Assembly (NCBI GenBank): GCA_021927905.1
Contig: BLLK01000029.1
Span: 434,001 to 498,000 of the forward strand
Length of the DNA stretch: 64,000 nt
Reading direction: 5' to 3'
Origin: Chaetoceros tenuissimus
Lineage: Eukaryota; Bacillariophyta; Thalassiosirophyceae; Chaetocerotales; Chaetocerotaceae
The first letter of the stretch is position 1, and each line of letters begins with the position of its first letter. The notes beneath the pieces were generated by a model that saw only the letters and a program-made list of their open reading frames with translations, did no database searches and was not told the DNA's origin. A program made the translations under genes and the position numbers. This document shows positions 1,453 through 44,406 of the stretch, one piece after another.

Positions 1453-4400
1453 TTACATGCGTTGTTTTTTCAACGTTACTCCATTTTCTTTAGTGGAGAG
1501 CTGAGACAAGTTGCCTTCGGATTCAAGGAAACTTATAGGCACTTTCAATACAGCCTTATTATCCATTGCGTCATTGATGAGTTGATCCCAATAAGGGTTT
1601 ACTGAAATGCTTTCACATCGGGCTATGACTAGTAAAAGGTGTTTCGCTCTAGTTAGAGCAACATTCATTCTTCTGACGTCGCTTAAAAAACCGATCCCTT
1701 TGCTGCCTGAAGCTCTGACACATGAAAAAATTACAATGTTGGCCTCTCTTCCTTGAAAGGAATCCACTGTGTTCACCTCTACTGATTGACTATAATCATA
1801 TCCAAGTGCTTGTGAGAATGTTCTTCTCAAAAGGGAAGCTTGCTGAGCATATGGAGTAATGATACTGACTTTACTTGTCGAAACGTAGATCCCAAAGTCT
1901 CTCACGAGACTCTGATATATCTTGACTGCGAGGATGGCTTCCATTGAATTACATAAACTTGATCCGTCCCTCTCTTCACTCGAATCGAGGTCGAAAAGAG
2001 TCAAAGGCTGCGAAAAATATGAGTAATGATATGAAAAATATAAAGTAAAGAGAAATAAAAGTCTTACCTGTATCTTTGGAAGCTTGATTCGTAGTCTCTC
2101 CATGAGTGGATTTCCAAATGTAGGGTCTTTCACATTTGAGCCATCATGCAGATACCCACCATAAAAGATATGACGGGGAAATGCAGAAATTTTAGGATGC
2201 ATTCTATATTGTGTGTCCAAAAGATGAACCTCATGCCCTGCTTCTTCTAATCTTTGGAATAGACTTCTGTCAAATTTTGTAGTTCGACCAGATACATTGA
2301 AAATTGTCGCCGGTAGCTGCTGTGGATCTCCAACAAGAATGGCATGTGAGCTACCTAATTGTAAAGCAACCAATGTGGCCGGTTCCACTGATTGCGCAGC
2401 CTCGTCGACTACAACTACTTCGAATTTGGAACATGCTTCTAAAGCCATGCACCCGGCAGTACCAAGAGTTGTCAAGACAATGTGGGTTGTGTCTAATATA
2501 TGCGTCTCCAGATTTAAACGTAGTGACTCTCCAGATTTTTTCGCTAGAGAATATCTTTCAAGTTTAGACGATGCAGAATTAAATCTATCGACTAACTTCA
2601 CCAAACGCGACATGAATACTTTGTATTCGGGCTGTGACTTCGCTTCTCGAAATTTCTCACCGGGCTCAGGAGGTGGGGGTTTCTCGTAGGTTGTCCTCTT
2701 TTCAAGATGATTTACATAATGAACTTGGCAATTCTCCTCGCACCTTATTTCCCATTCATTAGCTAGAGGATAGTCACATGCTGTTAAAATTGCAACTAGC
2801 CTACACCTCAATGAGTGAATTTCAGTCTGTAGTCTAGTGAGCTCGGATTTATAGCCAGCCATAGCACTCTGAACTCTGCCGGGATCCTCCATCTCTGTCA
2901 TTAATTCTTTTACTCTTGATTCTAATGAAACATCCTTCACAACTTGACTCTGGCCAACTCCTATTCTTACTATACTCGGATTGTACCTTCCTCCAGAACC
3001 ATCAATGAACCCTCCTTCCATGATCTTTTGAATTACATTGTCAATCGCATTGTTAGATGGTGCACAAACCAGCAGTCGCGGCTTTTGCTGTTGTGCTTGT
3101 GAAAGTGCTACTTTAGTGGCAGTTGCAGATTGAGTATTTTTTACATCGACAATAGTCTTCACGGTTGTGTAGTATTTATTGAATTGCCTTATATGTAAAG
3201 CGTTGAGAAGAGCTACCAAAGTTGTTGTTTTTCCAGTTCCAGGTGGACCCTTTATTAGCGTGAAACCACCTTTCCCATACTCTTCACACGCAGCAGCGAT
3301 GGCTCCTAACTGAGAATCATTGAACTTCTTTCTGGCATATTTAGCGAATCCTTCTCCCAGTGCTGCCTTTCCTCCGAGTTTCTTGATATAGTCATCTTTC
3401 TTCGGTTTCATTACTGATCTATTGGAAAGGATATCTGACAGGTGATCAAGATTGTCCTTTGCCCTGGTCATCTTTTTGCAAAGCACATATGGAAGCATGG
3501 AAATTGTATTGACTCTAGAGAGAGCAGTGAACTCTCTTAGGCTTGTAACATTTCCTCCAAGTTTCAATAAGTACACTTGCTCAACTTTCTCTTTTTTGCA
3601 AAATTTTATCCACTGCTGCCGAGATATTCTAATTTTGCAGCCATCCAATGTCCTTCTAGAATATTCTACATGACCAATAATACCTTTGAGACTGGAGTCG
3701 AAAACCTTAATACTGTCACTACTTGCATTCTTCCACATAGATCGCACCAGTTGACCTTTTGATGCCTTGACAAATACTTCTTTCGTTAATGCAAGACACA
3801 CAACATCACCAGATACAAAGCTTGGTCCCATGACATTATTCTTTGGAGATGTAATGACTGTCATTGCATCAACATTTGCACCAACATCTTTGCCAAATGG
3901 TTTAATATTTGTAAGGACTGGACCGGTCCCATCTCCTTTCTTTGAATTTCTATTATCGCGACCTGTATTTTCTCTCCATGGCAAGTTTGCACTTGCATCC
4001 GATAGAAACTGAGCTCTGGTCTCTGCCAAACACAGAGGAGCCCAATATCGTTGGTATTGTCTCCGACTTTGAAATATTTCTGGTATAGTTTTTGGTATAT
4101 TTTCAATTGTCCTTTCATTCAATAACAACGACGTCGGAGGTTCTTTTCGCCTTTTTCTAGAAACCTGCGGTCCGTCATCTGAATGTTCATTTGTGCTTGT
4201 GATATCCATACCCCCTCTTTCTTTATCCCAGTCCTTAAAGAAGTCCCAATCTCTCAAATTTCTATAATAATCATCCATATCCAGTATAGACCCATTTTTA
4301 TCTTCCTCTTCATCTAAAGTGAATTTATTTGCCTTCACAGTCTGTTTCAATTCTGATTTCGTGACACCGGCCTGATTTAGTAGCGAGGACAATCGCCCTC

Positions 4401-4851
4401 CTGATGCAATAGTCTTTTGAGTATTAGTAGAATTTGCTTTTTGGTTGATTGCCTGTATTCTCGATCTTGAAGCAGCAATTTCATCACTAACTCCTTTCGA
4501 ATTACTACTCCTTTTGGTAGGTCGTTTCATTGTAGGTCTTTTTGTTGGAGGTGGAGGTGGAGGCGGACGAACTCCATCGCATTTTGTCAAGTCAATCACT
4601 TTGGAACTATCAACTTTTTTTGGTATAGCCTTTTTGTTTTGTTTTCCAACTTTTGATGGTTTTTTCTGATCAATCAATGAACTCAGTGATGTACCTTTTC
4701 CATTATTGGAGGACGAGGATAATGTGATTTTAGGTGGCGGTTGAGATGGCTGTGATGAAGCTTCTGATTGCCTGCTGATTTCTCTTTGATGCGAGAGAAC
4801 TCGTTGCTTCCGCAGTATTTCCTCCTCTTTGGGAGACAACCGTTTTGACAT
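1453..4851 (-). CDS. SEN1/senataxin-type superfamily 1 helicase with WW-like insert
   Basis: This is an Upf1-like SF1B RNA/DNA helicase. Motifs appear in order: Walker A GPPGTGKTTT (about residue 535), Walker B VVVVDEAAQS, motif III VGDPQQLPAT, motif IV QYRMHPKISAFP, motif V VNTVDSFQGREA and motif VI RRMNVALTRAK. SEN1 relatives act in transcription termination and R-loop removal; that role is known for the family and inferred here. The basic, Ser- and Pro-rich N-terminus (about 250 residues) looks disordered. A WW-like module sits between motifs I and II (2671-2754). The ATG at 4851 is used; a slightly longer frame begins only at a TTG. A 60-nt intron (2008-2067; donor GTAAGA, acceptor TCGCAG) has no stop and is a multiple of three. 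Spliced protein: 1,112 residues. Divergently transcribed from VPS35. Confidence 0.88.
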   Translation of the reverse strand: MSKRLSPKEEEILRKQRVLSHQREISRQSEASSQPSQPPPKITLSSSSNNGKGTSLSSLIDQKKPSKVGKQNKKAIPKKVDSSKVIDLTKCDGVRPPPPPPPTKRPTMKRPTKRSSNSKGVSDEIAASRSRIQAINQKANSTNTQKTIASGGRLSSLLNQAGVTKSELKQTVKANKFTLDEEEDKNGSILDMDDYYRNLRDWDFFKDWDKERGGMDITSTNEHSDDGPQVSRKRRKEPPTSLLLNERTIENIPKTIPEIFQSRRQYQRYWAPLCLAETRAQFLSDASANLPWRENTGRDNRNSKKGDGTGPVLTNIKPFGKDVGANVDAMTVITSPKNNVMGPSFVSGDVVCLALTKEVFVKASKGQLVRSMWKNASSDSIKVFDSSLKGIIGHVEYSRRTLDGCKIRISRQQWIKFCKKEKVEQVYLLKLGGNVTSLREFTALSRVNTISMLPYVLCKKMTRAKDNLDHLSDILSNRSVMKPKKDDYIKKLGGKAALGEGFAKYARKKFNDSQLGAIAAACEEYGKGGFTLIKGPPGTGKTTTLVALLNALHIRQFNKYYTTVKTIVDVKNTQSATATKVALSQAQQQKPRLLVCAPSNNAIDNVIQKIMEGGFIDGSGGRYNPSIVRIGVGQSQVVKDVSLESRVKELMTEMEDPGRVQSAMAGYKSELTRLQTEIHSLRCRLVAILTACDYPLANEWEIRCEENCQVHYVNHLEKRTTYEKPPPPEPGEKFREAKSQPEYKVFMSRLVKLVDRFNSASSKLERYSLAKKSGESLRLNLETHILDTTHIVLTTLGTAGCMALEACSKFEVVVVDEAAQSVEPATLVALQLGSSHAILVGDPQQLPATIFNVSGRTTKFDRSLFQRLEEAGHEVHLLDTQYRMHPKISAFPRHIFYGGYLHDGSNVKDPTFGNPLMERLRIKLPKIQVRLLFLFTLYFSYHYSYFSQPLTLFDLDSSEERDGSSLCNSMEAILAVKIYQSLVRDFGIYVSTSKVSIITPYAQQASLLRRTFSQALGYDYSQSVEVNTVDSFQGREANIVIFSCVRASGSKGIGFLSDVRRMNVALTRAKHLLLVIARCESISVNPYWDQLINDAMDNKAVLKVPISFLESEGNLSQLSTKENGVTLKKQRM
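2008..2067 (-). other. 60-nt in-frame, stop-free intron in helicase gene
   Basis: It is bounded by CAG/GTAAGA and TTCGCAG/CC on the minus strand. The enclosed 20 codons are hydrophobic and aromatic and interrupt an otherwise conserved stretch just before the last helicase motifs, which is why I call it an intron. Retention would insert 20 residues without shifting frame. Confidence 0.8.
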
Positions 4852-5401
4852 TATTGCAAGGGGAAATGTACAAAAGATGTCCAATTATAGAAGCTCGTTT
4901 GATGGTATCGGCACTATGAAGAAAGATATGAATGAGAGAACAGGTTTTTTCAAACAAAAATGAGGTGACTTCTGTGGTTTGATTATTGATTGAGATTATG
5001 ATTTTATTGATCCTAAGTTAGATAAAAGTTGGCATTGCTCCATTTTGGGACTGGGTCGGCCGATACAGATGTCCATTTGGGTCGGTCACTAAGTAGGATG
5101 GAGAACTCCTACGTACAGAGAACTTCAAACACAACAACAGAAAAGCAAAAAACAAAAGAATCTTTTTCATTATTAGCTAATTCATTCCATAAAAACTAAA
5201 ATCATAAAGAGAAAGGACGACTCCTTCCGCACCTAATTAAACAATTAGATAGCCCTTTTTTCCTCTTGGTAGAAATTGGACTGGCTCAGCGGAAAACTCA
5301 AAGAGAAAACGCCTTTACAGATAGGGTCAGAAGAGTATATCTGGATCAATTGAGAAGATAGAAAACAGAAAAGTAACACATTCTGTGCAGCTTCTATCAC
5401 T
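4852..5401. promoter_or_regulatory. divergent promoter region, helicase / VPS35
   Basis: The 550 bp between two head-to-head starts must hold both promoters and 5' UTRs. It is AT-rich, with a GC-richer patch near 5045-5110. No specific binding site could be assigned by eye. Confidence 0.5.
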
Positions 5402-8400
5402 ATGTACGGAGTCCCTAATACCGGGATGCCACAGGGAGCCCCACCTCAGCCTCCAGGAGTTCCACCACCACCTCCAGGTCAAAACAACGATATGATGTAT
5501 AACAATGCAAGCAATGTTATGAGCGCAAATCCTAATCAATCTGCTCCAACTCCTGGGAGTTATGCTGCAAGATCACAAGCAGCATATGCATCAGATGCGA
5601 ATAATAACATGAATATGAATACAAATAATAATCAAGCAAATGCTTATCCATATCAGCAAAATCAGAATCGACCTGATATGCAGCAACAGCAATACGATTA
5701 TGGATACCAGCAGCAGCCACAAAATATGAGTGCGAATACGATGAATCCTGATCCCTCGCAACAGCAACCAATGCAGCAGCAACAATCTCAAATGTCTATA
5801 CCACCAAATATGCCAAATTATCCACCTCAGCAACCAGCACTACAACAGCCAATCCAGATGCCACAGAACCAGTTTCAAGTTCCTCAGCAACAAGTGCAGC
5901 AACAGCAGTACCCTCAGCAACCATATTCCCAGCCATCTCCATATACACCACAGCCTCAACTTGATAGCGAGCAAGTGCTCTTGCAGCAAGCTACTCGTAG
6001 AATGCAAGAGTCAACTCACATCATGAGAGGAGCTATGGAAGCAAATGATTTATCTACCACACTTGACAGAGCCGCTGCAATGTTGGGAGAGTTGGGTGAC
6101 CCAAAACATCATCACCATCATCGTCATCATCATGGACATCATAATCATGAACCAAAAGCTGTAATGAGTCCAAAGCACTACTATGAGCTTCATATGATGG
6201 CTTTGGACGAATTACCGAATTTGGAAGAATTCTTTTTGTCCATTACAGCGCCATCCTCCGAGGGATGTAATATTCCAAGAGTGAAATTTACAATGGAGGA
6301 GATTTATCAAGCTGTCCAATTTTGTCCAAGGGCGGTGCCTAGATTATACCTTCAAATTTGTGCAGGAAGTGCACTTATTCGCAGTACCACTATGGAACAG
6401 GATGATGATGCAAATGCACAAATCAAAAAGAACATGACAGTGAAGTCTGTGTTGAAAGATTTGAGAGATAATGTTAAATGCGTACAATGCCCTATTCGTG
6501 GATTGTTTCTGAGACATTACTTACTGCAGGCAATGAAAGATAAACTGCCTGATGATGGGGAAGAAATCGGGCAAGATGTAAATCAACAAGCTGATAACAT
6601 CGAAGCAATGAGTGCCAATAACAATAATGATTCCAAAGAGGTTATTGGAACTACGGTAGATGACACTAATTTCACAAATGAAAGTTCTATTGCTCAAACA
6701 AAGCGTAGTAATGCAGTGGATGATTTGATGGGTGGACTTGGTGTTGATTCGAATAACATGCAAGGTGGATTTATGGACGAACCAATCATTTCTGCACCGG
6801 CTGCCGCTCCTCCAGCAGTTCCTGATATGGCGCCTGTACAAGAATCGTCACCAAATAGTATTGCCCTCGTGGATGCAGTAGAACAGGACGATCCAAATGC
6901 TCCTGGTACCGTAAAGGATTCATATGAATTTGTTTTGGCCAACTTCATTGAGATGAATAAGTTGTGGGTACGTATTCAGCACCTTCCTGGAGACTCCAAG
7001 ACAAAAGAAACCAAGCGTAAGCGTGAGAGGGAGCGTAATGAATTGAGAATGATGGTTGGCACGAACTTGGTAGTTCTTAGCCAATTAGAAGGAGTCACTT
7101 CTGCAATTTACGGAACTGTGATACTCCCAAAGATACTAGATCAAATTGTCGCATGCCACGATCCTCTCGCACAGGCCTACTTGATGGATTGCATTGTTCA
7201 AGTTTTTCCGGATGAATTTCACATTCAGACTTTGGAAGTTGTTCTTAGTGTATGTCCAAAGTTGAGAGAAAAGGTAAACATCAAGACTATCTTGCAAAGT
7301 GTTATGAATCGTATGGCAAACTACTACGCAGATGAACTTCTTTTAAACGATGAAGAAGATACCCATGGTGTGAAGATGAGTGTGATGATGGATTCCTACT
7401 CTATGTTTGATACATGTATTCAGAATGTGTTGAATGCGAGAGGTATAAAGTTGACAGCCAGGGAGGCTATTCGATTAGAGTCTGCTTTAGTTGACTTTAC
7501 ATTGAAGTGCTATCCAGGTCAAATTAATTACATTGACAATTGCCTTCGTGTATGCGCAAGTGCTCTTCGCGGTGAAGGACAACATGGTATTCTCGCTCCA
7601 GATGGTGTGACAATGCAACCAAATCCTATTCCTCTTGATGATAGAGCCATTAACGAACTGGAAAGGATTTTGTCACTTCCTCTGGAGGAACTATCATTAG
7701 GAGTCCTTGATCTTGAACACTATTCCGAATTGCTTGAGCTTTTACCCTGGGAAAATCGTAAGCAGGTAGCAACTCAATTGTTAGAAGTGTTGGATGAATC
7801 TGGAGCAACAATATCAACAGTAGCAGAACTTGACCAACTTTTCTCTATTATTACTCCTTTACTTCGGAACAGTCCAATAAATGGAGGTGGAGTGAATATT
7901 AGTGAGAAAGATAAGGACCTCATTGCAAAAGTCATACATATAATCTACAATGAAGACACAGATCTTCATTTTGAAGTTTTAAATGCCGCCAAAAGAAATA
8001 TTGTTACTTGTGGAGGTGGTGCAGAAAATTTGACTCCTGTTTTCTATGCCTCAATGAATCTTCTTCATCGTGTACGAGATGTTGAATTCCCAGAAGTGGG
8101 ATATGAAAAGGATGGAAAATATAATTGCAGTACACAAGAAGAGAGTGAAGACAAACAAGACCCCGTTGATGTAACTGAGAACAAGTCTACTGAAGGAGAT
8201 CCCGCCGTTCATAATGAAAGTAAAGAAGATGACTTGAGTTATGGCGAGGATAAGGAAGAAGATGATTTGAGCTATGGGGATGTTTCGGATCAGGCTGGTG
8301 ATATTGTGAAAAAGGACAGCGTCGAGGAACTTGCTGATGAAATCGAACAAATGATTACGATTGACGATAACCTAGCGCAAAAAGATGAAGAGACAAATCA

Positions 8401-9289
8401 GGACTTAGTAGAGGAAGTAGAAGAAAAGCAAGATGAGTTGCAGTCAAATATTCAAGGTGACTTATTTGCTGATTCACCATTAGAAACTCAAGAACAAGAA
8501 AAAGAGGAAGAAACAGTTTCCCCTCCAACTTTTGACAAGCAAGTAACTTGTCGCAAAATTTTTCTCTTCATTCAAAATCTCGTTGCTGGTTTGAAAAATC
8601 TCAATGTAGAGACGTGCTTTATTCTATCTACCGAAGCTGCTGCAGCCGCAGATTGCTGTGCCAGAGTTGTTATTTCTAGAGGCGGTACTTGCGATTTTTC
8701 TTCAATTGCTTATACTTTCCTGTCTGAGGCTTTCCTCGCATATGAAAGTGGTATTACTGACTCTAAGATGCAAGTGAGCACAATTTCCACTATGATAGGT
8801 ACTCTTTTGACATGTAAATCTTTCAATATGAGCGACTATGAAACACTCATTACGAAGGTTACTCAATATGCAGCTCGCCTTTTGAAAAAGAATGATCAGT
8901 GCAAGATGGTTATGCTATGCTCTCACCTTTTCTACACTTACGACGACGTTGAAAATAGTTACAAGAATTCTCAAAGAGCTCTAGAGTGCTTGCAAAGGTC
9001 ACTTAAGGTTGCTGATATTTGTGTTTCATCTAGTCCTGGTGATCTCCAGCTGTTTGTCGATATCTTAGATATTTACCTCTATCATTTTGAAAAGTCGAAT
9101 CCTATCATCACCGACAAGTACATTTCTGGTCTCATTGCCCTAATAAATCAGCATATTGGAGATATTGGCCTTTTGAACCCAGCTATTGTAGCAGCAAAAG
9201 ACCATTTTGTACACATCGTGAAATACATCAATGAGAAAAGGAGTCGTGATGTGAGATTTTCAAGTATTGCTTGCAATATTACCATGTGA
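5402..9289 (+). CDS. VPS35: retromer subunit VPS35 with long low-complexity extensions
   Basis: VPS35 is the alpha-solenoid core of retromer, which recycles receptors from endosomes to the Golgi. The family signature is clear: YYELHMMALDELPNLEEFF, the VPS26-binding PRLYLQ motif (residues 313-318) and QCPIRGLFLRHYLLQ. Helical repeats follow to the C-terminus. At 1,295 residues in a single exon it is about 500 longer than typical VPS35 (near 800). The extra length comes from a Q/P/N-rich N-terminus (about residues 1-185), a histidine cluster (236-249), a variable stretch after the PRLYL region (about 385-490), and an acidic D/E/K-rich insert between solenoid repeats (about 905-1045). The frame is continuous across all of these. 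The start at 5402 is the first ATG and is followed directly by the proline-rich leader. Confidence 0.9.
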   Translation: MYGVPNTGMPQGAPPQPPGVPPPPPGQNNDMMYNNASNVMSANPNQSAPTPGSYAARSQAAYASDANNNMNMNTNNNQANAYPYQQNQNRPDMQQQQYDYGYQQQPQNMSANTMNPDPSQQQPMQQQQSQMSIPPNMPNYPPQQPALQQPIQMPQNQFQVPQQQVQQQQYPQQPYSQPSPYTPQPQLDSEQVLLQQATRRMQESTHIMRGAMEANDLSTTLDRAAAMLGELGDPKHHHHHRHHHGHHNHEPKAVMSPKHYYELHMMALDELPNLEEFFLSITAPSSEGCNIPRVKFTMEEIYQAVQFCPRAVPRLYLQICAGSALIRSTTMEQDDDANAQIKKNMTVKSVLKDLRDNVKCVQCPIRGLFLRHYLLQAMKDKLPDDGEEIGQDVNQQADNIEAMSANNNNDSKEVIGTTVDDTNFTNESSIAQTKRSNAVDDLMGGLGVDSNNMQGGFMDEPIISAPAAAPPAVPDMAPVQESSPNSIALVDAVEQDDPNAPGTVKDSYEFVLANFIEMNKLWVRIQHLPGDSKTKETKRKRERERNELRMMVGTNLVVLSQLEGVTSAIYGTVILPKILDQIVACHDPLAQAYLMDCIVQVFPDEFHIQTLEVVLSVCPKLREKVNIKTILQSVMNRMANYYADELLLNDEEDTHGVKMSVMMDSYSMFDTCIQNVLNARGIKLTAREAIRLESALVDFTLKCYPGQINYIDNCLRVCASALRGEGQHGILAPDGVTMQPNPIPLDDRAINELERILSLPLEELSLGVLDLEHYSELLELLPWENRKQVATQLLEVLDESGATISTVAELDQLFSIITPLLRNSPINGGGVNISEKDKDLIAKVIHIIYNEDTDLHFEVLNAAKRNIVTCGGGAENLTPVFYASMNLLHRVRDVEFPEVGYEKDGKYNCSTQEESEDKQDPVDVTENKSTEGDPAVHNESKEDDLSYGEDKEEDDLSYGDVSDQAGDIVKKDSVEELADEIEQMITIDDNLAQKDEETNQDLVEEVEEKQDELQSNIQGDLFADSPLETQEQEKEEETVSPPTFDKQVTCRKIFLFIQNLVAGLKNLNVETCFILSTEAAAAADCCARVVISRGGTCDFSSIAYTFLSEAFLAYESGITDSKMQVSTISTMIGTLLTCKSFNMSDYETLITKVTQYAARLLKKNDQCKMVMLCSHLFYTYDDVENSYKNSQRALECLQRSLKVADICVSSSPGDLQLFVDILDIYLYHFEKSNPIITDKYISGLIALINQHIGDIGLLNPAIVAAKDHFVHIVKYINEKRSRDVRFSSIACNITM

Positions 9290-9691: not shown

Positions 9692-12600
9692 ATGGCTACC
9701 GAAAACAATGGCCTAAAAGATGTGTTTGACTCTGTCGTAGCATTGGTGCAGAATTCTTCATCTGAAGAATTTATTCCAAATGAAATCAAGCTGAATCTCT
9801 ATGGTCTGTTCAAGCGAAGCACATGTGGCATGACCTCTGACTATGAGTTGTCTGGTCCTGTAATGTGGAACATTGTGGCGACTAGGAAACGCAATGCTTG
9901 GAAAGAATACGATTGTATTGACGCTGATGAAGCTATGGAAAGCTATATTAAGTTGGTATGTGAATTTGAAAATCACACAGGTGATGAGGCAAGAGCACTT
10001 TATAAAGATTACTTGAGAAATAAAGTCGGTAGCAACACTCAAGAACAAGTTGAAGCCCGTATTGGTAATTCGCATGAGCGACCTTCTAAAAAAAATATCT
10101 ATGATCATGCAAATGAGAAATTGTCATTGATTGAAAAGTTGACTGGAATCAAGCCATTTCTACCACGTGGTCAGCTTGATATATCGTATTATCAACTTAT
10201 GTTTGCTCTCTCTAAATGCATTCGGCCAAATTTACCATTTTTAGAAGCACCCATGAGGGCAACGATTCGGTTGGAAAACGAAATAGAGGAATTATGGACA
10301 AAGCAAAGCAAGTCCAGGCTTCGTGTTATAACTGGATTATCAGTTCGTTCACTGGTTGATCTTTTGCTATTGAGTAAATCATACCCTAGAGGGTCTGAGG
10401 TTATTATTGTACCACCTATTGGGATTGAAGGGATGATGGATGTCATTCAGTTTCATGGACTGAAAATAGTACCTGTAGATATTCCTGACTATGAAATTGA
10501 TCCCATTGTAAAGGTAGATATTGAAAAGGTAAAAGCAAAGGTGACAAGGAAAACCGTGGCAGTTTTGGTGGTGCATCCGTTCGGATTAATTTGCATGAAA
10601 AGCAAGGAAGTCCAGAAGCTGCGTTATGCATTAGACGAGAGCACTTCATCACAGAAGATTGAAATATGGGAAGATTGCGCTGAATGCTATTCTGGAACAG
10701 ATAGATATCAGGGATCTGAATATTCAGATATTCATTTCTTTTCTTTTGGAACTATAAAAACTGCAACTTGTCTTGGTGGAGGGATATGTACTTTGAACCA
10801 TGATTTGAATGAGAATTTGACAAATACTTACACAAAAATGAAAAGAATACAACATACGATGCATTCACAACAAACCAACGTAGAATTTTTTCACAAAATC
10901 GCGAAAGCCACCACTCTCCTTTTTTTGTCAAGAAACCCAATTTTGCTTGGTGCAATTATACAAATTCTGTCAATATTTCGACTTGATTATGACCGTTTAG
11001 TGACATCAGCAGTGAAGGGGTTCCCCGCACAAATTGACAAAGAAAAATTCAAAACTCAAAAGGAGTGGAAAGTGGCGCGTGCACGAAATTTGATACAGAG
11101 ATTAAGAAGGTGTCCATCACCTGCTTTATTGGCTTTACTTTCTAATAGGCTGAAACAATCGTCTTCCACATCCAGAACCGTCGATGACCGAGTAGAGCGT
11201 TGCAAGAAAATGACTGAACTTCTGAAAAAAGAAGTTCCAAATATTGGTGTTCCAAAGGATGATGGATCACAACACTTGTATTGGCTCATGCCAATTCTAG
11301 TCAAAATGCCATTGAAGATATTTAAGGACATGGCAAGTGTAGGATATGATGTTCCTAATGGCACGTCACAGTTAGGATGTGTCACATCATTTCTGTTTGA
11401 TAAAGATGAATCCAATTTTGAGAGTTGTCCGAATACTGAACGGATGATGAATGATATATTGTACTTGCCAACTGCAAGTATAGATATTTCGAAGTGTGAA
11501 ATGAAGAAACTGGTTACCTTACTTCGACACTTTACAGAAAGAAAGACTACGGAAAATGCTATCAGAAAAGTCTCAAAGTCTAAGTGTTCCTTACAATCAT
11601 GCGGATTCTATGTTGTGATGATATACTTGCTAGTGAGAAACTCAAAATTTCGTTCAGATGCCATGTTGCTGATTAGAATCCTATCGCATCTTTGGTTATT
11701 ATTCAGTATGCTTGTAATAACATTGCATGTCCTGAGGACTTCCATGGGAAAATTCTACCTACAATGCTCAAAATCCTTTGCGAAATACAACGATATAGTG
11801 GTGAAAAGAAGTGGACATAAAACTGTCGAGACCTTTGAAGGTAATGGATTCCAAGTGTTGAGCCCTCCTGAAAATTTGAAACAAACATATGATTTGAATT
11901 TGCATACCGACATTTCCATCCCTGATTTTGGTGTAGTGACAGCAGACCAGTATAATAAAGTCGTTCTGACTGGAGCCACAGGTTTTATTGGATCTCTTTT
12001 GCTCCGAGAATTACTTATGCACCGTAAAAGATTACACATATCGGGAGGAGTCATCCTGATTATAAGATCTAAAAGAAACGAATCTGCCCTATTAAGGGCG
12101 AAGAAACTCATGTCAAAAGAAATGTTTTCATTTCTTTCCGATAACGAAAAAGACTCACTCGTACAAGTTTTTGAAGGTGACGTTTCCAAACCCAAACTTG
12201 GAATGAATTCAGAAGACTACCAAAAGCTTCGTTCTGATGAAAAAATATCACATGTCATCAACAGTGCCGCATGTGTTAATTTCACTGAACCATTACCTCG
12301 AGCAGCAGAATCAAATATAACTTCTGCACTTCAGTTGCAACAACTTTCCCAAGACATGCTTTCACGCCCAAAATATGTTTACTTAAGCACTGCGTTTGTG
12401 CACGGTGCAAGAACGGGATCACCCCAAAGTCCTCTTCAAGAGGATCTATTTGATTTTGGAAAGTGTGATCCTTTACATCTATATCAATCGATGATGCACA
12501 CTGAATCTGCTGCATCAGCAGCAATGAATCAATTAGGTTTTCCAAATACATATACTTTCAGTAAAAGTATCTGTGAGCATCTATTGTTGAGAAATAAAAA

Positions 12601-15600
12601 GGTATCGACAACAATAGTCAGACCATGTATAGTCGGACCAGCAGTGCAGGAGCCATTTGAGGGTTGGGCTGGAGACAAACCGTCAACTCTTGTTGCAGGC
12701 GCTTGTTTATATTTGAAGAATCCATACAATCTTTGGAGTTTCAGAAAAGAAAGAGCTGCTGTAATCCCTGTTGATGTTGTGTGTAGATTTGTAATCGCGA
12801 AAGCATTCGACACCTCTGTAGATGAGCGCGCTCAGTCAACAGACGAAGAAAGTGTAAATTCATCTGAAGAAAGCTACGTTTTTGCGAAAGAATCACGGGT
12901 CAAAAGAAAAGAAAATAAGATTGGAGCTTGTAGAAACATCTATACTGCTGCTTGGAACCATAATTCTCCTGCATCATCACAATTTCAATGGTATGCTTTT
13001 GCATGTGCCATAGTTCAACTTGCCTGTGCGAAAGGTCATGTCGGTATGACAATTACATACCTAGTGTTATTGATATCTTTCCGGCTCTTTCTAGCTTTGA
13101 ATCTGAGCTTAGGATCATTTCGAAGAATGCACACAATTTTGGTCCGGGTGCCTTTTAATTGCGTAAGGTATTTCTGTGATGTGCTGAAAATTAAACCATC
13201 TATCCTGCGAGATCTTGAGAGACTAGTGTCATTTCTGAATTTGCCGATTTTATTCTTCCCGTTCACATCATACACTTTCTCCTTCCAAAGTGAATTACAC
13301 GCACCAAAGGAATTTAATGCGGAAAGATATATGTTTTCATGTATTCTCGCTGCCGAAAAATTTGTTGAGAAATTAAATAAAAACAAAACGGATAACAAAC
13401 ATTCTGAAGATGATGAAAAAGGAAATGTTCTGATTGCAGGTAGTCGAGCGAAGCAACCGTTTTCGGACTTATTATGGTCCTTAACACAACCGCGAGGCAA
13501 CTACGCGATCAGACTCATTGGGTGGGTTATGATAAAAATTCTCCGATTGGTATCCAGCGAGGTAACTGTGGATATAGAATCCTTAACAAATGTCGTAAAA
13601 ATTGCAGAAGAAAGAAGAAAGCAAGCGAACAGTATTAGTGTCCTTATTGCACCTACACATCGATCCTACTTTGATTTTGTCTTGATAAGCTTCATAACAT
13701 TTGCTATGCCAGAGCTAGGACTTTCTATACCTCTTATTGCAGCTGCAGACGATTTTTCGAAGGTACCAGTCATTGGGTTGATGTCTAAAATGGCTGGGGC
13801 ATTCTTTCTGAAAAGAGGTAAAGGCTTTGTAGATCCAGCTCTGCGTGAACAGATTATAGTCTCTAAAAAAAGGATTAAAGGTGAAAGTTTCGGTGTTCTC
13901 GAAGTTTTCTTAGAAGGAAAACGAAGTAGAGATCGCCGTTTTGTTACTCCAAAGACTGGATTCCTAAAAAGCTTATCATCGACAAAAGGGGAGAATATTG
14001 TGGTACCAGTCACTATAAACTATGAATCCCTTCCAGAACAAGCTTGCCTAGCCAATGAAGTGGATGGGGATGCGAAAGGGAAGATGTCCTTTTTCAGTTT
14101 ACTCACGTGGATGAAAGTAAGTATTTGCGTACATTGATATTAACAACATTCTTGTAATTGGATATGTTCTTAAATATGTTCGCAGAGTGTTTTTAGGGAA
14201 AAGGTTCAACTCGGGAAGATCCATATTGTAGCAGCTTCTCCGATTCAAATGGATGAAAACTGCTCTACTGATATGAATGCTTTGACAAGTTTGGTCCAGT
14301 CATCTCAAAAGGATAAGATTCTTGTATCTCGGTATCATATTCGTGCATGTGCGTCGATTTTGGACGTAGATCCGACTATTGTTACCAAATCTATCAAACA
14401 GCAGAATATATGTCTGTGGAAGAGTGATTATGGAGAAGTAGAAGAATTGCCACATTCGTTAACTGAGAGATGGACTATTTTCCTTCATTTCGGACATTAT
14501 TATGCTAGCTTTTTAGGGGAGCAATATAAAAATTGGGCTTTATGGCTTGGAGCTCATCAAATTTCTTCGAAAGAGGAGATTGATTCATTAGATGATCATA
14601 CTATGCAAATTATATCATCTCTTCGATCTATATTTGATGAGGTAGATAACATTGTTGAAGATACTCTAGAGATGTTAAAGAGAAAGGGTTCCAAGTATCC
14701 AACCCCTGAACATTTGTTGCAGTATTGTCGCAGTGACGGGATGCATATCCCCACGCTTCTATACAAAGCATCAATATCGGTAAAGATCACTAAAGATCAG
14801 CACGTTGCCTTTGAATCTCTTCACGACCGGGAGGAACCGGCGACTCCACTTTTTGAAAATGATGAGAATAGTATAATGAATGAAGTCATGGAGCAAGAAT
14901 CGTTTGGATCTTGGGGATATAAAGATTCTGGTTTTGTTGTGCACGTCGACGATCGAGGAAAGAAAATTGTTTCAATGAAAGGTATAAGATATCAGATCAG
15001 TGGTCGTGATATGCCAAGACTTATCCCATTTCTTGAAGGAGAAACTGGTATTAGAGTTGATCCCACCAAAACTGTTTTACCGAAGAGGTGTAAACTCGAA
15101 ATATCTCAAACTGGTCTGAGCTTGGAGCTCATCAAAAGACTAATTTCAAGTTTATCGAATGATAGTCAAAGACTTAGTACGTCAGATATCGAAAGAGCGC
15201 GCCATGGTACTGGTCATAGTCAAGAAGACATGTACATGATAAGAACCGGGGGGCTTTCGAACATGAGATTGCCTGATGTCGTAGTGTATCCGGAGACAGA
15301 AAATGAAGTGAAATTGCTTGTATCATTGGCAGTGGAGGAAAATCTTTGCCTAATTCCATTTGGGGGAGGAACGAATGTTACCCATGCCACTTGGTGTCCA
15401 TTAAAGAAAATCGATTCGCGTCCAATGATATCTGTGGATATGAAGAGAATGAATAAAATTCTTAAGTTTAATGAGGAGGATTGTACCCTCCACGTCCAGG
15501 CAGGTATCACCGGTGCTGATCTTGTTCGTGAAATATCTAGCATGGGATATACTGTAGGACACGAGCCTGATAGTATAGAATTCAGTACGTTGGGTGGATG

Positions 15601-16666
15601 GATAGCAACCAAAGCTAGTGGTATGAAACAGAACAAATATGGAAATATTGAAGGAATTGTGAAGGAAGTTCGAGTGATTAGTTCTAGTGGAGATCTCTGG
15701 CAACACGATGACTGCAATGGTGCATCATTTGCCAGAGTTTCGACTGGTACCGATTTAACATCTATCGTGCTGGGATCTGAGGGTTCGCTTGGAATCATTA
15801 CAAGTGCCATAGTGAAAGTCTGGCCTTTACCAAATGTGAAAGATTATGAAAGCGTTATTCTACATAACTTCGAAGACGGTCTTCTCTTCATGAAGGGAGT
15901 ATCGAGACTTGGAGCTTTGAAACCGGCTAGCGTGAGACTCCTAGATAATACTCAATTTAGACTGGGTCAGGCTCTCCGGTCGAATGAATCCATGTTAGAA
16001 ATCATGAAGAAAAATGCTAAGAAAATGTTCATCTCACTTCTATATGAAACCTTTCATATTGAAAAAATGGTTTGTGCTACAATTACATTTGAAGGTTCAA
16101 AAGATGAAGTCAATCTTCAAATGGAAAATATTCGTAAGCTTTCCATTAAATATGGAGGCATTTGCGCTGGGAGAGAAATTGGTAGAGCTGGTTATGATAT
16201 GACTTATGCTATCGCGTACATACGTGACTTTGCGATGACATATGGGTTTTTAGCTGAGTCATTTGAAACTTTCGTTCCGTGGTCAAAATTAAGGTCAATG
16301 ATCAGTGCTACTAAGGAACGTCTCAAGAAAGAGCATGAGGATAGAGCACTTCCAGGGAAACCTATAATTACTTGCCGGATAACGCAACTTTATGATGAAG
16401 GAGTTTGCGTATATTTTTACTTTTGCATGAATTTTGAGAATGTAAGAGACCCAAGCTCTGTTTTTGCTATGATTGAATCTGCAGCTAGAATGGAAATTTT
16501 GGCTCAAGGTGGATCTCTTAGTCATCATCATGGGATTGGAAAACATAGAGCATCGATGATGGACAAGGTCAACTCAGAAGATCTACGCTGCGTCCTGATG
16601 AAGATGAAAGAAGCAGTTGATCCTGCTAATGTTTTCGGTGTTAGAAACGGAAGCTATTCTCATTAA
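9692..16666 (+). CDS. multifunctional ether-lipid synthase: ACBP / DegT-like aminotransferase / FAR / GNPAT / AGPS
   Basis: Two exons (9692-14116 and 14186-16666) joined by a 69-nt phase-0 intron (GTAAGT to TTCGCAG) give 2,301 residues. Domains in order: acyl-CoA-binding protein fold (8-92; LYGLFKRSTCG, WKEY, AMESYIKLV); DegT/DnrJ-type PLP aminotransferase-like (about 165-615; D328 in WEDCAE, Lys356 in FGTIK); hydrophobic segment near 662-681; fatty acyl-CoA reductase (about 750-1215; TGATGFIG 760-767, Y954xxxK958); GNPAT-type acyltransferase (about 1240-1700; HRSYFD 1323-1328, FLEGKRSR 1406-1413); alkyl-DHAP synthase (about 1780-2301; FGGGTN 1867-1872, HEPDS 1934, HHHG about 2255). FAR makes the fatty alcohol, GNPAT makes acyl-DHAP and AGPS swaps acyl for alkyl using FAD. 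The role of the aminotransferase-like part is unknown. The C-terminus SYSH is not a PTS1 signal. Confidence 0.9.
14117..14185 (+). other. 69-nt intron in the ether-lipid fusion gene
   Basis: Donor AAA/GTAAGT and acceptor TTCGCAG/AGT, phase 0. Reading through hits a TGA, which is why the gene looks like two open frames. The 21 codons from 14186 to 14248 join the two frames and complete the GNPAT motif KIHIVAASPIQMDEN. Both halves of the acyltransferase therefore lie on either side of this intron, which proves one gene. Confidence 0.9.
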
Positions 16667-34616: not shown

Positions 34617-37600
34617 ATGGTTCAGGGCATCAATAAAGGGGGAATAGATAAAAACAACATTAATTCCACAAGCCAGAACATATCTGCGAACGCACAGCAA
34701 CTTCCTTTTACATCACAGGAACAAATTGAATTGAACGCGGAAGTCAACGCAAATAAGAAGAAAGGCAGTACTAGAGCGGATATTGACTCTTACCTTCACG
34801 CGTATATTGCACAGCTGGTGAGTGATAGATGCTGTTTCTGTTTGTATGTTCTGTCCACTGTGTCTTTCATTTCTGCAGCAAGTGTTGGTCAATTGAACTG
34901 TTTTTGATGTTTTCTTGGTAGTGACATAAACTGACTTTTAATTTTAATCTAACCAACACATCATAGGCAAAAGGAATCAACGGTGATAACGTTCAGAGCA
35001 GTTTTGCGGAATTACAACTTTTGTCAAAATCTGAACCGCAAGTTATCACAGAATTTCTAGGGCATTTATTATCCGACCTCACTCAACACTTGGAGAAAAG
35101 TAACGCTGCAAAACTTCCACAGGGTAAAGCGAAAACCGAAGCTCTTCAACTAGTCCTTGCCAAATCAGCTAACAGCTACGATTTCCCAACTGTAGTTTGC
35201 ACGGCATTACAGCACACTCATAATATTGGACGAAGCGCAAACGCAGGTCTTGCTTTTACATCCCTAGTACAGTACCTCAAAAACTCAACCACTGTCAACA
35301 TTGGAGTTGTAATTCTTTGCACTTCTATCTGTTCAGGTTGGCGTTCGATATCAAACGATTCTTTAGTACTAGATCTTGCTACTCGAATTCTCCTAAGTGA
35401 TTTGGAGAAAGACATTGAATCCACAAATTGTAAAAATTACAGCACTGCCCTAAGAGAGGCTATTCTAATAGTATTGTCATCAAGCAAGGTAAGACTTACT
35501 ACCACACTTTTTCCAAGTTTTGTTCTACATTTTCACTCATCCCATTTCTTTTCATCACTAATATCAGGCGGTTGATACTCAGAGTCCGAGTGTACGACAT
35601 TTGATCAAAAAAATATCACTTGTTGAACCCAAACAAAATATTGAATTAAAGGCAAAAATGGCGGATCGTCTATCACCATCTGGAGCAGGTCTCATCACAA
35701 ATATTCTTGCTGAGTGCGGCCCAGCATGTGCACAGTCAGTGTTTGCCTTACGCGATACACTTCGCCAAATCAGAGGAAGCACTACATTGAATGAAGCTGT
35801 AATGGCTCATCTCATTCACTTTTTTTCTCAGAGGACTGATTGGAACCAAGGAAATATTGCACAAGTTTTAGCAGAAGACTACTCTCACTTAAACTGGGAC
35901 CAGGTAGCTCTGAGCTTTGATTTTCCAGAATTCCATATTCGCGATAGAGGGCATCTCAAATCATTTGTAGAACTGTACAAAGCTGCTGCGAAGAAGGTCT
36001 TTCCGGTGCAAGCTTTAACAATGTCTCAATGGTCAAATTCGTCAGGATTGCTTTCCTTCATTGAGAATTCCTTTCTCATGCCAGAATCGATTGTCTATTA
36101 CCCCTTGACAGAAGATGAGGAGAGAAATGCAGCAATTGCTGATCATTTACAGAACACCGTGTGCATAAATAAAAGAGCTTGGGCATCTCAGCAAGTTATG
36201 CTTCTTTTGATGAAGTTCTCAGATGACCCAAATCTTTTACCTCGTGTACAAAACTTGTTTCGAGATGGAATTGCCATTTATCCTGAAATCATTGTGTGCA
36301 CTTTCACTACAATCCTCACGCTGAATCTCCCAATCTTTGGAGAAAAATTAAAAAATGCAGTATTGCAAGAAATTATCAACGTGTTTTTCGTTTCGCCGAA
36401 AGTGCGCAATATTGTTGGTTCTATCAAGAGAGTTTTGGCTATCAGTGAGCAACTCACATTTATTTACATTCTTCAGGCTTGGAAAAATGCGCATGTTGAG
36501 AGTCGTGTGAATATTCTTGAAAATGTAGTTTCACTTGTTGCCAGAGTAGAACCAGATAACTATAGGCAATTGTTTCTGGGAGGGAATCGATACCAGAGTG
36601 ACAGGCGTGAGCTAAACCTTGGAGTTGCGATGTTTCTGCATGACCGCAATAAGCTTGGATTGGAAGATTACTTGAAATCTCAATTTGAATGCTACAAAAC
36701 TGATGCTGTCATTGATGTGATTTCTTTTATTTCAAAACATCATGATCATATGAAAGTTGTCAACTACGAAGCTAAGAAGTCACTTTTATGTGAAGCAACG
36801 ACTGTAATTTGCTTCAAGTTCCTAGAAACGCTTGAGGGTAGCAACATTTTAAGTCAAGCTTATACACCAAGTAATACTGGTATGACTTTGGGCGAAACTA
36901 AGAAAGCGCTGTGGAGAGAAATTTGCGAGAAACATCCTAGAATTAATGAACAGCTGAGAAATCCAACCAGTAAAGATGATATTGAAGAAGAGGCCAACAA
37001 ATATTTTCAACAAATCTACAAGGGAGAGAAAGATATTGATGATGTCATTCGAATGTTGACACAATTCAAGAAATCTGGGAACAGTAGAGAGAATGATATT
37101 TTCGCTTGTATGATTCATAATCTCTTTGATGAATACCGATTCTTTTCGAAGTATCCTGACAAGGAACTGAGAATCACTGGGATTTTGTTTGGTAAACTGA
37201 TTCAAGAGCAACTTGTCTCAAGTATTACTCTTGGAATAGCACTAAGATATGTGTTGGAAGCTCTTCGCAAAACCGGAAATAAGAAAATGTTTACTTTTGG
37301 TATGTATGCATTGGAGCAATTCAAAGATCGCCTTCATGAATGGCCACAATATTGCTCGCACATTGTACAAATTCAGGGCCTCAAGGATAACTATCAAGAA
37401 CTTGTCAATAATATTGAAGCAGCAAGACAACAACATGCTGGACAAAATGCTGGAGCAGGGTCAATTGGGAGTGTTACAAATGATTCAACCTCTGTTTCAT
37501 CCGAAAGTAAACATACAGCTAGAGTTCCATCCACTGTGAATGTACAAATCCCAAATGGAGTCATGCCCTCTTCACTAGACTCAGCTCCTCCTTCTCCAAG

Positions 37601-40600
37601 CAAAAGAGAAGCTGTTTTTGGTCCGGGATTAGGGAGAGCTGTTACAGAAAGTAAGGAAGATGTCCAGCATGAAGGACCTAGTGGACAGACAAAAGATCGC
37701 ATTCAGAAACTCATGAATAACGTTACCGCCGATAATGCTGAACAAACTGCGATGGAGGTGAAAAATATTCTTGATCGCAGACACTTCAACTGGCTTGGCC
37801 ATTATCTTGTTGTCAAACGAATTAGTTCTCAGGTGAACTATCATCATGTATATCTTTCTTTTCTTGAACATTTAGGGGATTATGGAAAAGAACTCTTTGA
37901 TGCAATCCTTTCCAGTTTATATTTAAATGTTGGAAGTCTTCTAAAGTCGAAAGAAATCACCTCTTCCTCAAACAAGCGTACTGTTTTGAAAACCTTGGGA
38001 AGTTGGCTTGGTCTGATTACACTTGCACGAAATAAACCAATTTTACAGATTACCTTGGATTGTAAAGAACTTTTATACCAAGGATATGAAACTGGAAGAC
38101 TAATTGCAATTACTCCTTTCGTTGCCAAGATTTTGGAGGGAGCGAAAAATTCTCAAGTTTTTCGACCACCAAATCCATGGGTGATGGGTCTGTTGGGAGT
38201 ATTTAGGTCTCTTTATGAAGTTGAAGACTTGAAGATGAACATTAAGTTTGAGGTTGAAGTGTTATGTAAGAATCTGGGATTGTCTCTCAGTGATATTCCT
38301 CTCCGTAGTGAGGATCTAGCCAAAAGAATTCCACCAAATAAAATCTCAAATCAAGACTTCAATGTGAAAAGCTCTGGTGTTAATAGCCAAAGACCAGGCA
38401 CTCCAGGTGGTGATAAAAGTGTGGGTGGTGCACCAGCAACCTCGACGCCATCTCTTAGACTTGGCGCATCCTCACCTGCTGCAGCTGGATCAAAACATCA
38501 ACAGACAGTTATTCCGAATCTTGATAGATATGTTACTATTAACCCTGATCTTGTACAGCTATTCCAGCAACTTGGACCAACCAGTTTGTTGGATGAGTCT
38601 AGTTTAAAGAGATGTGTTCCTATCGCAGTAGATAGAGCCATTCGTGATATCATTCAACCAGTTGTTGAGCGCAGTGTCACGATTGCATGTATTACTACCA
38701 AAGAAATTGTCACGAAGGACTTCGCAATGGAGAGTGATGAGAAGAAGATGAGGAAATATGCACAGCTCATGGTAGCCAACCTTGCAGGTAGTTTGGCACT
38801 TGTTGCATGTCGTGAACCTCTCAAGGTTAGTATTTCGACTCACTTGAAACAGCTTCTTGTGAATACTGCAGCAGGAAATACTTCAGGAACAAATAGTCAG
38901 GCTAGCGTGCTTGGTGAAGCTGCAGAGAATGTAATTGAACAATGTGTGGCAATTGTTTCACAAGATAACCTAGACCTTGGATGTACTCTCATTGAAAAGG
39001 CTGCTACAGAGAAGGCGGTACGGGATATCGAGGAGTCAATTTGCGACGATCTTGCCAAACGTCAAAAGCATCGTGAGATGACAGGAAAACCATTTTTCGA
39101 CATGTCGATTTTCAATCCAAACCAAAGATACCCAGAAGCACTCCCAGAGCCTTTGCGTCCAAAACCAGGTGGTCTTCGAAGGGAACAGTTACAAGTATAT
39201 GAAGCGTTCCATCGCATTCCTAGACAGCCTACTGCACAACAGAATAATTCTTTGAATTCAGCTAGTGTGACAGGTAGTGCCAGCGGCAGATTTAATTTTG
39301 AGCTTATAACTAACATTGCTACAAAGCTCGAAAATTCAGTCACGACCACTCTTGCCCAGTATGGGGCTCGTGCACCTGAGATTACTCTGAGTAAAATTCA
39401 TGCAGAGCATGACATCAAAAAATTAATTCTAGCTGCTAAACATATGACTATGGAAGTTGCTGAGAATGGGACATTATCTGCGGCAGAAAAGGACTCTGCT
39501 CTTGGTTTCGCACAGCACATTTTTAAGAGACTTTACGAATTAAGACTTTCCGAGCCCCTTCGTTTAGAAGCTTTTGTTGCTTTACTTGAAGCTCTCAATA
39601 TTTGTTGTCGTGATCTTGAGACCAATTTAGGCACATGGGCCACGTATGCTCCATCTGAGACTGATGCTCAGCGCAAGCTTCATCGTACTGTTCTTCTACT
39701 TCTTTTACGTAGCAAACTTCTTCAGGTATCTGGTTTGGATAGATACTTGTGTGAAAGAATTGACCGGGGTAGAAATATTGTTTGGCTCGAATTCACCATG
39801 GCCCTCATCCGCACTGCTGTTCATGAGAAAATTTTCAATTTGAAAGACTTACCTCAGACGATTGGCGTCATAGTTGAATTGAGCAAGAGTGGTGGTCAAA
39901 GCAATCAAATTGCGCAGTGGCTGAGGGTTGTTGAAGAGTCGAATCATGATAAGAATGTTACACAAGCTAGCACATCAGTCCTGAATGCATCTGTGCAAAT
40001 GAAGTCAGTGTCAACCAAGGCTTCACAGCCTTACAAGAGCAGTATCTCAATGACTTCTCTGGCGAATCTTGCTAGTGCACCAGCAAGAGCATTGGAGTCA
40101 ATTAAAACGACTTCGCGTGATGATCCGCAAAACTTGAAAGAAAGAATCATCATGCTTTTAGATGGATGGATGAGAATCATCAATGATGTAGGAAGCACTG
40201 AAAAACAGCTGCAGTATATTCAGCTCTTGCAGCAAAATGGAATTGGTTCTAATGAAGAACAAAACGAGCGCTTTTTCCGTGTCAGTACCGAAGTTCTTGT
40301 GGCAGCAGTTTTGAAGGACAGCAATGAGAAGAAGACACTGAATTACAACGTGATTGACAGCTATAGCAAGTTGATTGTAGCTTTAATGACAAACCTCAAT
40401 CCGAGTGGCAATAGCGATGATATTGGGAATCAGCGAGTAGCTCTTCTCAATCAAATTCTTGGTGTTACTATGCGTACAATGATGGCAAGTTATGAAAATG
40501 CGAAGAGATCAAGTGCTCAAAAGGTTCCGAAATGGGATCAGAGACCGTGGTTTAGACTTCTTCTCAACCTTGTCATGGATCTAAATTCCCCTAGTCCTAT

Positions 40601-43978: not shown

Positions 43979-44406
43979 CTTCTCTTCGAGGTAGTGATGT
44001 TCTTTTCGAAGAAACCTACAGAATCAAAATATGGTTCTTGGTATTTACTTGGTACTTGTGATGAATGATGAGTGAAACTCAAAGATCTTTCTACGTATTG
44101 TATGGTCAGGCAGGTCATCGGTGGTGATTATATAGCTAGCTCGCTAGATAGATAGGAAGGCACATCCTCCTAAATTGACTCATACCCGAAGAAGAGTAGT
44201 GGGTCAGTCTTGCAAGAGACTCCAAGACTTTTTTTGAAATTAGCTGATGAAATCAAATGAGAGCAACGGTGACTTTTTTTTAAACTGCAACTGCCACTAC
44301 TACACTTTGCAGTAGTACCATAACAGAATTGAATCAATCGTGTGATTAATTAAGCCAAGAGAAACATTGCAGTAGTACAAATCAATTGAAAATAAATAGT
44401 GCTGCA
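43979..44406. promoter_or_regulatory. divergent promoter region, GSS / SMC4
   Basis: 428 bp between head-to-head genes. A short duplication around TGCAGTAGTAC (44310 and 44371) is visible. No defined regulatory motif was identified. Confidence 0.45.

Follow-up and report, generated by a model that had tools for sequence, protein, structure and literature searches.

A diatom gene predicted to encode a five-domain ether-lipid enzyme with an aminotransferase domain

Gene structure

A window of 64,000 nucleotides from the diatom Chaetoceros tenuissimus (contig BLLK01000029.1) contains, on the forward strand, a two-exon gene which runs from ATG to TAA and encodes a protein of 2,301 residues. The protein is predicted to carry five domains on one chain: an acyl-CoA-binding domain (ACBP), a pyridoxal phosphate (PLP) aminotransferase, a fatty acyl-CoA reductase (FAR), an acyltransferase (AT) of the GNPAT class and an alkyl-dihydroxyacetone phosphate (alkyl-DHAP) synthase (AGPS). 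Judged by these domains, it is very probably an entry enzyme of ether-lipid synthesis that makes alkyl-DHAP.

9692..16666, + strand: whole gene, exons 9692-14116 and 14186-16666, 2301 aa, from frame reading and junction alignment
14117..14185, + strand: predicted intron of 69 bases, GTAAGT...CAG, phase 0, within the acyltransferase domain

The two open reading frames (ORFs) at 9692-14137 and 14249-16666 share one reading frame, the first being closed by a stop at 14135-14137 and the second starting at an ATG at 14249. The segment 14117-14185 (gtaagt...cgcag) contains three in-frame stops and reads as an intron, the removal of which joins 1475 and 826 residues into the 2301. Across the junction the query (LLTWMK followed by SVFREKVQLGKIHIVAASPI) aligns without gaps with relatives that have continuous proteins, such as P0005 (LLKWFK followed by TARANKVNLGRIHISAAVPV), and some of these relatives are transcript-derived. 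The homology of several other relatives' ORFs stops at the identical residue, as would be expected from a conserved intron. The stop and the ATG that opens the second ORF could also be read as the boundary of two genes, or of a broken one, with transcripts ending at about 14137 and AGPS made separately from 14249. However, the acyltransferase domain spans the junction, and a transcript that stopped at this point would disrupt the acyltransferase rather than separate two enzymes. The splice signals are canonical, and the acyltransferase and AGPS are found on one chain in relatives including the transcript-derived P0006 (Chaetoceros sp. GSL56), P0036 and P0208 (Thalassionema nitzschioides); we consider a two-gene arrangement very improbable. 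P0006 is 53% identical to the query, with P0004 and P0005 closer. A pseudogene or frameshift was ruled out, as no lesion was seen, all motifs are intact and the intron is canonical.

Domains and catalytic residues

9719..9958, + strand: acyl-CoA-binding domain (residues 10-89), Pfam PF00887, 4.6e-13
10118..11581, + strand: fold-type I PLP aminotransferase domain of the DegT/DnrJ/EryC1/StrS type (residues 143-630), complete fold
10673..10675, + strand: Asp328, D in 263 of 264 PLP-domain rows
10757..10759, + strand: Lys356, K in 264 of 264 PLP-domain rows
11663..11746, + strand: hydrophobic stretch (residues 658-685) between the PLP and FAR domains, Kyte-Doolittle scan
11966..12790, + strand: FAR reductase domain (residues 759-1033) with TGATGFIG and YTFSK, PF07993, 3.3e-44
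13628..14017, + strand: PlsB/GNPAT-class acyltransferase core (residues 1313-1442), PF01553, 9.3e-15; the domain continues into exon 2
13658-13675 and 13913-13930, + strand: acyltransferase motifs HRSYFD and EGKRSR
14873..16648, + strand: alkyl-DHAP synthase (AGPS), PDB 4bby, 5.6e-136 over exon-2 residues 230-821
15272-15697, + strand: FAD_binding_4, Pfam
15830-16636, + strand: FAD-oxidase_C, Pfam
16523-16531, + strand: HHH motif of AGPS

Pfam searches returned ACBP, DegT_DnrJ_EryC1, NAD_binding_4 and Acyltransferase on exon 1, and FAD_binding_4 (5.8e-34) and FAD-oxidase_C (2.3e-30) on exon 2. An earlier reading of this DNA (the original prediction) had placed FAR, an acyltransferase of the GNPAT class and AGPS on a single polypeptide, and the common frame, the 69-base intron, the Pfam matches and the match to 4bby bear this out. 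The catalytic motifs that it named are all present and are largely conserved in relatives. Its list of three enzymes was correct but incomplete, since ACBP and the PLP aminotransferase, which may take the product beyond alkyl-DHAP, were omitted. Likewise the pathway order that it proposed holds for FAR, acyltransferase and AGPS but not for ACBP, which is at either end in relatives, or for the PLP domain, which would act last in the proposed chemistry yet is near the N terminus. Among the profiles that it suggested, NAD_binding_4 (PF07993), PF01553, FAD_binding_4 and FAD-oxidase_C matched and PF03015 did not.

Conservation of ACBP, FAR, acyltransferase and AGPS was counted over the rows having the column in question, with five dinoflagellate rows set apart. 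The N-terminal domain has the ACBP fold by Pfam and retains Y37 and K41, which we take to be the acyl-CoA-binding Tyr and Lys, each in 92 of 93 rows.

The reductase is of the NAD_binding_4 type with TGxxGFxG and YxxxK, and its Tyr954 (107/107) and Lys958 (108/108) are invariant. There was no Pfam match in the protein to the C-terminal ‘Sterile’ domain of FARs (PF03015); one region containing invariant Phe residues can be aligned with bacterial FAR-acyltransferase proteins (FARATs). The assignment as FAR is based on NAD_binding_4, on the match to the solved FAR 7eoz (2.1e-8, with reductase domains of natural-product synthetases scoring higher in the same search) and on 28-33% identity to the bacterial FARATs.

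In the acyltransferase, which has HX4D and EGxRSR, His1323 (109/109), Asp1328 (108/109) and Glu1408 (108/108) are conserved. NCBIfam ranked PlsB (6.5e-20) above AGP_acyltrn (AGPAT, 1.9e-9), both below their curated cut-offs, consistent with the PlsB/GNPAT class. From the presence of AGPS on the same chain we infer that DHAP is preferred over glycerol-3-phosphate.

The AGPS region combines kinship to 4bby with a VAO-type FAD domain and conserved HHH, FGGGTN and HEPDS motifs, so that the acyl-for-alkyl exchange activity is predicted; Asp1937 is found in 65 of 65 rows and His2256 in 59 of 60. When the AGPS was searched against its own genome it found itself and two weak partial matches, with no other AGPS. 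Exon 1 found itself and two partial FAR-like matches.

Pfam matched the DegT-type PLP domain at residues 233-374 (4.4e-15). The fold is complete, with Lys356 presumably forming the Schiff base and Asp328 presumably partnering the PLP ring nitrogen, both roles being taken from the DegT family, in which dehydratases carry His in place of the lysine. Ser351 is also kept in 264 of 264 rows. These rows span diatoms, dinoflagellates and bacteria, and three of them are duplicate Gemmatimonadota loci. Most of the solved structures closest to the PLP domain are of sugar aminotransferases, which act on ketones.

Distribution of the fusion

The full-length search gave 114 proteins, of which 113 were classified with domain hidden Markov models (HMMs) from the alignment, P0117 being left out for its unrelated architecture. 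They comprise 51 ACBP-PLP-FAR-AT-AGPS, 42 ACBP-PLP-FAR-AT, 14 PLP-FAR-AT-AGPS and 3 FAR-AT-AGPS proteins, together with 3 others. Of the 42 AGPS-less proteins, many break off inside the acyltransferase or at the residue that forms the query's junction; these look to have been cut at introns by bacterial-style gene calls and so do not show loss of AGPS. A dinoflagellate query added 48 proteins: 15 PLP-FAR-AT-AGPS, 9 FAR-AT-AGPS, 6 with all five domains in order and 18 others, one of which has all five with ACBP last. The search for the same architecture elsewhere that the original prediction had proposed thus finds all five domains in the query's order in 57 of 161 related proteins. Its statement that no fusion also holding AGPS was known is wrong for nature, as many diatom and dinoflagellate proteins, one green alga and one brown alga have it, and a fusion unique to this window is rejected for the same reason.

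The diatoms include Thalassiosira, Cyclotella, Nitzschia, Skeletonema, Seminavis and Fistulifera, and the dinoflagellates, whose fusions mostly lack the N-terminal ACBP, include Cladocopium, Symbiodinium and Prorocentrum. The green alga is Pycnococcus and the brown alga Ectocarpus (a partial protein). ACBP is at the C terminus in P0203 (Seminavis) and in the dinoflagellate-like P0181, P0193 and P0194.

Neither the HMM nor Pfam (E up to 1) detected a PLP domain in the fusions of Pycnococcus and Ectocarpus or in P0203, P0209, P0210 and P0213. The PLP-free algal fusions, P0203, P0205, P0209, P0210, P0212 and P0213, suggest that the core works without the PLP domain, which within the fusion alignment is also more variable than FAR and AGPS. 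It might then be a non-catalytic or regulatory remnant in a one-chain FAR-GNPAT-AGPS enzyme with an acyl-CoA carrier. This seems unlikely, however, given the complete fold and the retention of Lys356, Ser351 and, in all but one row, Asp328 across diatoms, dinoflagellates and bacteria.

In Seminavis the PLP-less P0203 and P0209 occur beside a PLP form, P0200, in the same diatom. The brown-algal-type P0210 (99-513) and P0212 (94-493) have some 400 residues between ACBP and FAR with no Pfam match, at the position of the diatom PLP domain.

Bacterial relatives of the aminotransferase domain

Eighty bacterial loci containing relatives of the PLP domain were examined for neighbouring genes with the domain HMMs. 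In three of these (L031, L036 and L044), all from Gemmatimonadota, the PLP gene directly follows a FARAT gene. L031 and L036 also carry AGPS ahead of FARAT-PLP on their contigs; the L044 genome has AGPS, together with the missing start of FAR, at the end of another contig (L091). An AGPS-like gene adjoins PLP in L033. In the remaining loci of this set the HMMs detected no AGPS, FAR or such acyltransferase, apart from three fused acidobacterial proteins that match AGPS weakly.

FARAT was then used as the query against 395 genomes of Gemmatimonadota, the phylum of L036 (7 matches), and 377 genomes of the phylum of L058 (38 matches, 30 loci examined). L058 belongs to the Lujinxingiaceae, which we take to be Myxococcota in GTDB. 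The gene right after FARAT is a short-chain dehydrogenase/reductase (SDR; PF01370 in the three checked) in 27 loci, 4 from Gemmatimonadota and 23 from the L058-phylum set, and PLP in the three described above. L125 has neither, L095/L100, L115 and L127 are cut by contig ends, and L129-L132 show the FAR domain only. There was no PLP match in the SDR loci, most of those in the L058-phylum set ending inside or just after the SDR.

The same swap is seen at the level of whole genomes, some of which are draft assemblies so that absences are not certain. Among Gemmatimonadota genomes with FARAT, all five that lack the PLP gene have SDR orthologs (47-100%), and none of the three with the PLP operon does (best 28-32%); PLP orthologs show the reverse pattern, a 35% relative in G131 apart. 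Short DegT matches only were found in 22 of the 23 SDR genomes of the L058-phylum set. All three PLP operons have a further PlsC-like acyltransferase gene, which is absent from the four SDR loci that extend 2.2-6.2 kb past the SDR; the other SDR loci are too short to tell.

An oxidase of the ALO/FAD_binding_4 type is paired with PLP in 10 of the 80 loci (by BLAST, with Pfam on L038 and L069), L033 being an eleventh. It is beside PLP in six planctomycete loci, L038 (3404-6154), L046, L053, L059, L064 and L066, and fused to it in four from Acidobacteria, L063, L069, L075 and L080; oxidase and PLP are possibly an alcohol-to-ketone-to-amine pair. The PLP subfamily thus repeatedly pairs with enzymes of the FAD superfamily that includes AGPS, though the oxidase and the unrelated neighbours indicate that it is not specific to ether lipids.

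Other neighbours were also seen. A glutathione S-transferase-like gene directly precedes PLP in L019, L021, L022, L023 and L035 (betaproteobacterial) and L018 (a cyanobacterium), five of these loci sharing one cluster (Pfam on L019 and L018). In P0150, P0166, L058 and L082 the PLP subfamily is fused with or beside a PF01553-type acyltransferase with no AGPS seen, and such pairs might make N-acyl serinol-type lipids. Assemblies titled Bordetella parapertussis (L021, L022, L035 and L043) are placed among other betaproteobacterial metagenome-assembled genomes in the PLP tree and their titles look doubtful.

Phylogeny

In the PLP tree the diatom domains and the dinoflagellate domains each form a group with support of 100, and the two come together weakly (67 and 81 in two trees). 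The operon PLP genes are placed within other bacteria (99 and 98 in two trees). This placement speaks against direct descent of the algal domain from a Gemmatimonadota operon, though forcing the operon and algal PLP together was not rejected (approximately unbiased test, p 0.053). Independent recruitment in algae and Gemmatimonadota is favoured on these trees. P0197, which has five domains, has a divergent PLP domain and an unsure position.

The AGPS domains of the sampled algal fusions (26 rows) cluster together with support of 99, whether or not the fusion has PLP. One Phytophthora protein is the only stand-alone eukaryotic AGPS in this tree, P0212 and P0213 having been dropped by coverage, and this sampling is too narrow to show a single fusion event. 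Duplicate Gemmatimonadota loci were left out of this and one further tree.

Proposed reaction sequence

Based on the order and families of the domains, ACBP would hold long-chain acyl-CoA, FAR would convert one acyl-CoA by reduction into a fatty alcohol, a second acyl-CoA would be used by the GNPAT-class domain to acylate DHAP, and AGPS would swap the acyl group for the alcohol to give alkyl-DHAP. The textbook step after AGPS is reduction of the C2 ketone of alkyl-DHAP (PMC13256971), and an SDR in the slot after FARAT fits this step. PLP in the SDR's slot, together with the PlsC-like acyltransferase, fits amination of the ketone followed by N-acylation. By analogy, the algal PLP domain could act on alkyl-DHAP, which we consider possible if somewhat doubtful. 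It would transaminate the C2 ketone where the known pathway has a reductase, and the product, 1-O-alkyl-2-amino-propane phosphate, could be N-acylated to a ceramide-like ether amide. As an account of the whole protein, a five-domain ether-lipid synthase that includes this transamination is tentative, with a little short of an even chance, all of its reactions being deduced. One frame across one intron, intact catalytic residues, a single AGPS in the genome, wide conservation and the reductase/PLP swap in the operons are observed, and amination is suggested by position, fold and family chemistry.

The PLP domain directly precedes FAR, and reductases are paired with aminotransferases for aldehydes in myxobacterial natural products. 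It is therefore conceivable that the enzyme makes ordinary alkyl-DHAP while its PLP domain converts either the fatty aldehyde of FAR to long-chain amines or free DHAP to serinol phosphate, the latter a reaction for which enzymes exist. Against this, FAR-acyltransferase-AGPS fusions and operons occur without PLP, so that the aldehyde presumably proceeds to the alcohol, and early amination of DHAP would starve AGPS, the chemistry of which needs the C2 ketone. The ketone substrates of the structurally closest sugar aminotransferases and the SDR as swap partner in the operons also argue against it, and we consider it unlikely.

Several points weigh against amination of alkyl-DHAP. In the trees the algal domain has closer kin than the operon PLP genes, so the operon analogy is indirect, and most bacterial PLP relatives have no ether-lipid neighbour (3 of 80 with FARAT and one more with an AGPS-like gene), others adjoining unrelated genes. 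The SDR's own role in the operon is not proven. The SDR genome G543 has a full-length PLP relative (39%, 5.9e-72) on another contig and G131, with its 35% relative, is also an SDR genome, so the PLP subfamily and SDR can occur together in one genome. There are also algal fusions without a PLP domain, and these show no match to the bacterial-operon SDR in its place. We also know of no published 2-amino ether lipid from diatoms.

More doubtful still, though possible, is the broader proposal that diatoms, dinoflagellates and, perhaps independently, some Gemmatimonadota make C2-amine ether lipids by transaminating alkyl-DHAP. These would be ether-linked serinol lipids, ceramide look-alikes formed without serine palmitoyltransferase, and in the algae the route from acyl-CoA to amino lipid would be on one polypeptide. 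If the PLP domain does aminate alkyl-DHAP, an undescribed lipid class would be expected in plankton lipidomes, with the simple bacterial operon as a test bed.

Comparison with known systems

The diatom protein shares FAR followed by a PlsB/GNPAT-class acyltransferase on one chain with FARAT/ART1 of Dictyostelium, Tetrahymena and other protists, where they start ether-lipid synthesis (PMC7375469, PMC13256971, PMC3143110). The original prediction had correctly pointed to Dictyostelium FARAT as a partial counterpart; unlike in the diatom protein, no AGPS, PLP or ACBP is mentioned for FARAT/ART1 in the available portions of these papers. Such fusions are described from ciliates, Dictyostelium, Phytophthora and Naegleria, and the excerpted text of the same 2011 paper reports none in Thalassiosira pseudonana or Phaeodactylum (PMC3143110). 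The fusions found here are in other Thalassiosira species.

In Myxococcus, MXAN_1676-1675-1674 are reported to comprise separate genes for AGPS and FAR-GNPAT, after which comes an epimerase/dehydratase (SDR-type) gene (PMC9131029). This layout is like that of the 27 bacterial SDR loci, with separate polypeptides, and with SDR where the algal protein and the three Gemmatimonadota operons have PLP. The myxobacterial ElbD is a multidomain ether-lipid enzyme with FAR-like and acyltransferase domains, as in the diatom protein, but has acyl-CoA synthetase and acyl carrier protein (ACP) domains, with AGPS as a separate gene and no PLP described in the accessible part of the source (PMC9131029). Neither the acyl-CoA synthetase nor the ACP domain had a Pfam match in the diatom protein at E up to 1.

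Animal AGPS, FAR1 and GNPAT have by domain the same three activities, with GNPAT and AGPS described as a complex (PMC9131029). They are three separate peroxisome-associated proteins, whereas in major ocean algae fatty-alcohol supply, DHAP acylation and ether-bond formation would be on one chain. To our knowledge the animal enzymes have no PLP partner. The keto-sugar aminotransferases ArnB, PseC and perosamine synthase, stand-alone enzymes acting on nucleotide sugars, are 15-21% identical to the PLP domain. The DHAP aminotransferases RtxA and Cj1437 are likewise PLP enzymes; they aminate the DHAP ketone, acting on free DHAP for rhizobitoxine or capsule. No published report of an algal FAR-GNPAT-AGPS or PLP fusion was found in open-licence PMC full text, which is not proof of absence. 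Each component enzyme belongs to a known kind; what is apparently new is their combination, how widely it occurs and the presence of the aminotransferase.

Location in the cell

The diatom protein ends in SYSH and has no type 1 peroxisomal targeting signal (PTS1), whereas the peroxisomal Dictyostelium FARAT ends in SKL. Of 104 related proteins in which AGPS lies close to the C terminus, none ends in a PTS1-like tripeptide ([SAC][KRH][LM]). Phaeodactylum tricornutum is reported, in the part of the source available, to be without import by the other peroxisomal route, PTS2 (PMC9244630), and taken together these suggest that ether-lipid synthesis may run outside peroxisomes there. The hydrophobic stretch at residues 658-685, present at the matching place before FAR in all nine relatives scanned, is a possible membrane anchor. 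It would seem likely that the enzyme is membrane-bound and non-peroxisomal.

Other genes

Elsewhere in the genome there is a PF10520 lipid desaturase (2.4e-59; L133, G000:C47:187470-187985), which from its family could be the plasmalogen desaturase PEDS1 or the plastid FAD4. By Pfam the neighbours in the window are ordinary eukaryotic genes: an AAA_11/AAA_12 helicase (1453-4884), Vps35 (5402-9289), CNOT1 (35601-41654), SMC (44386-47841, over two ORFs) and TRAPPC13 (58978-60423).

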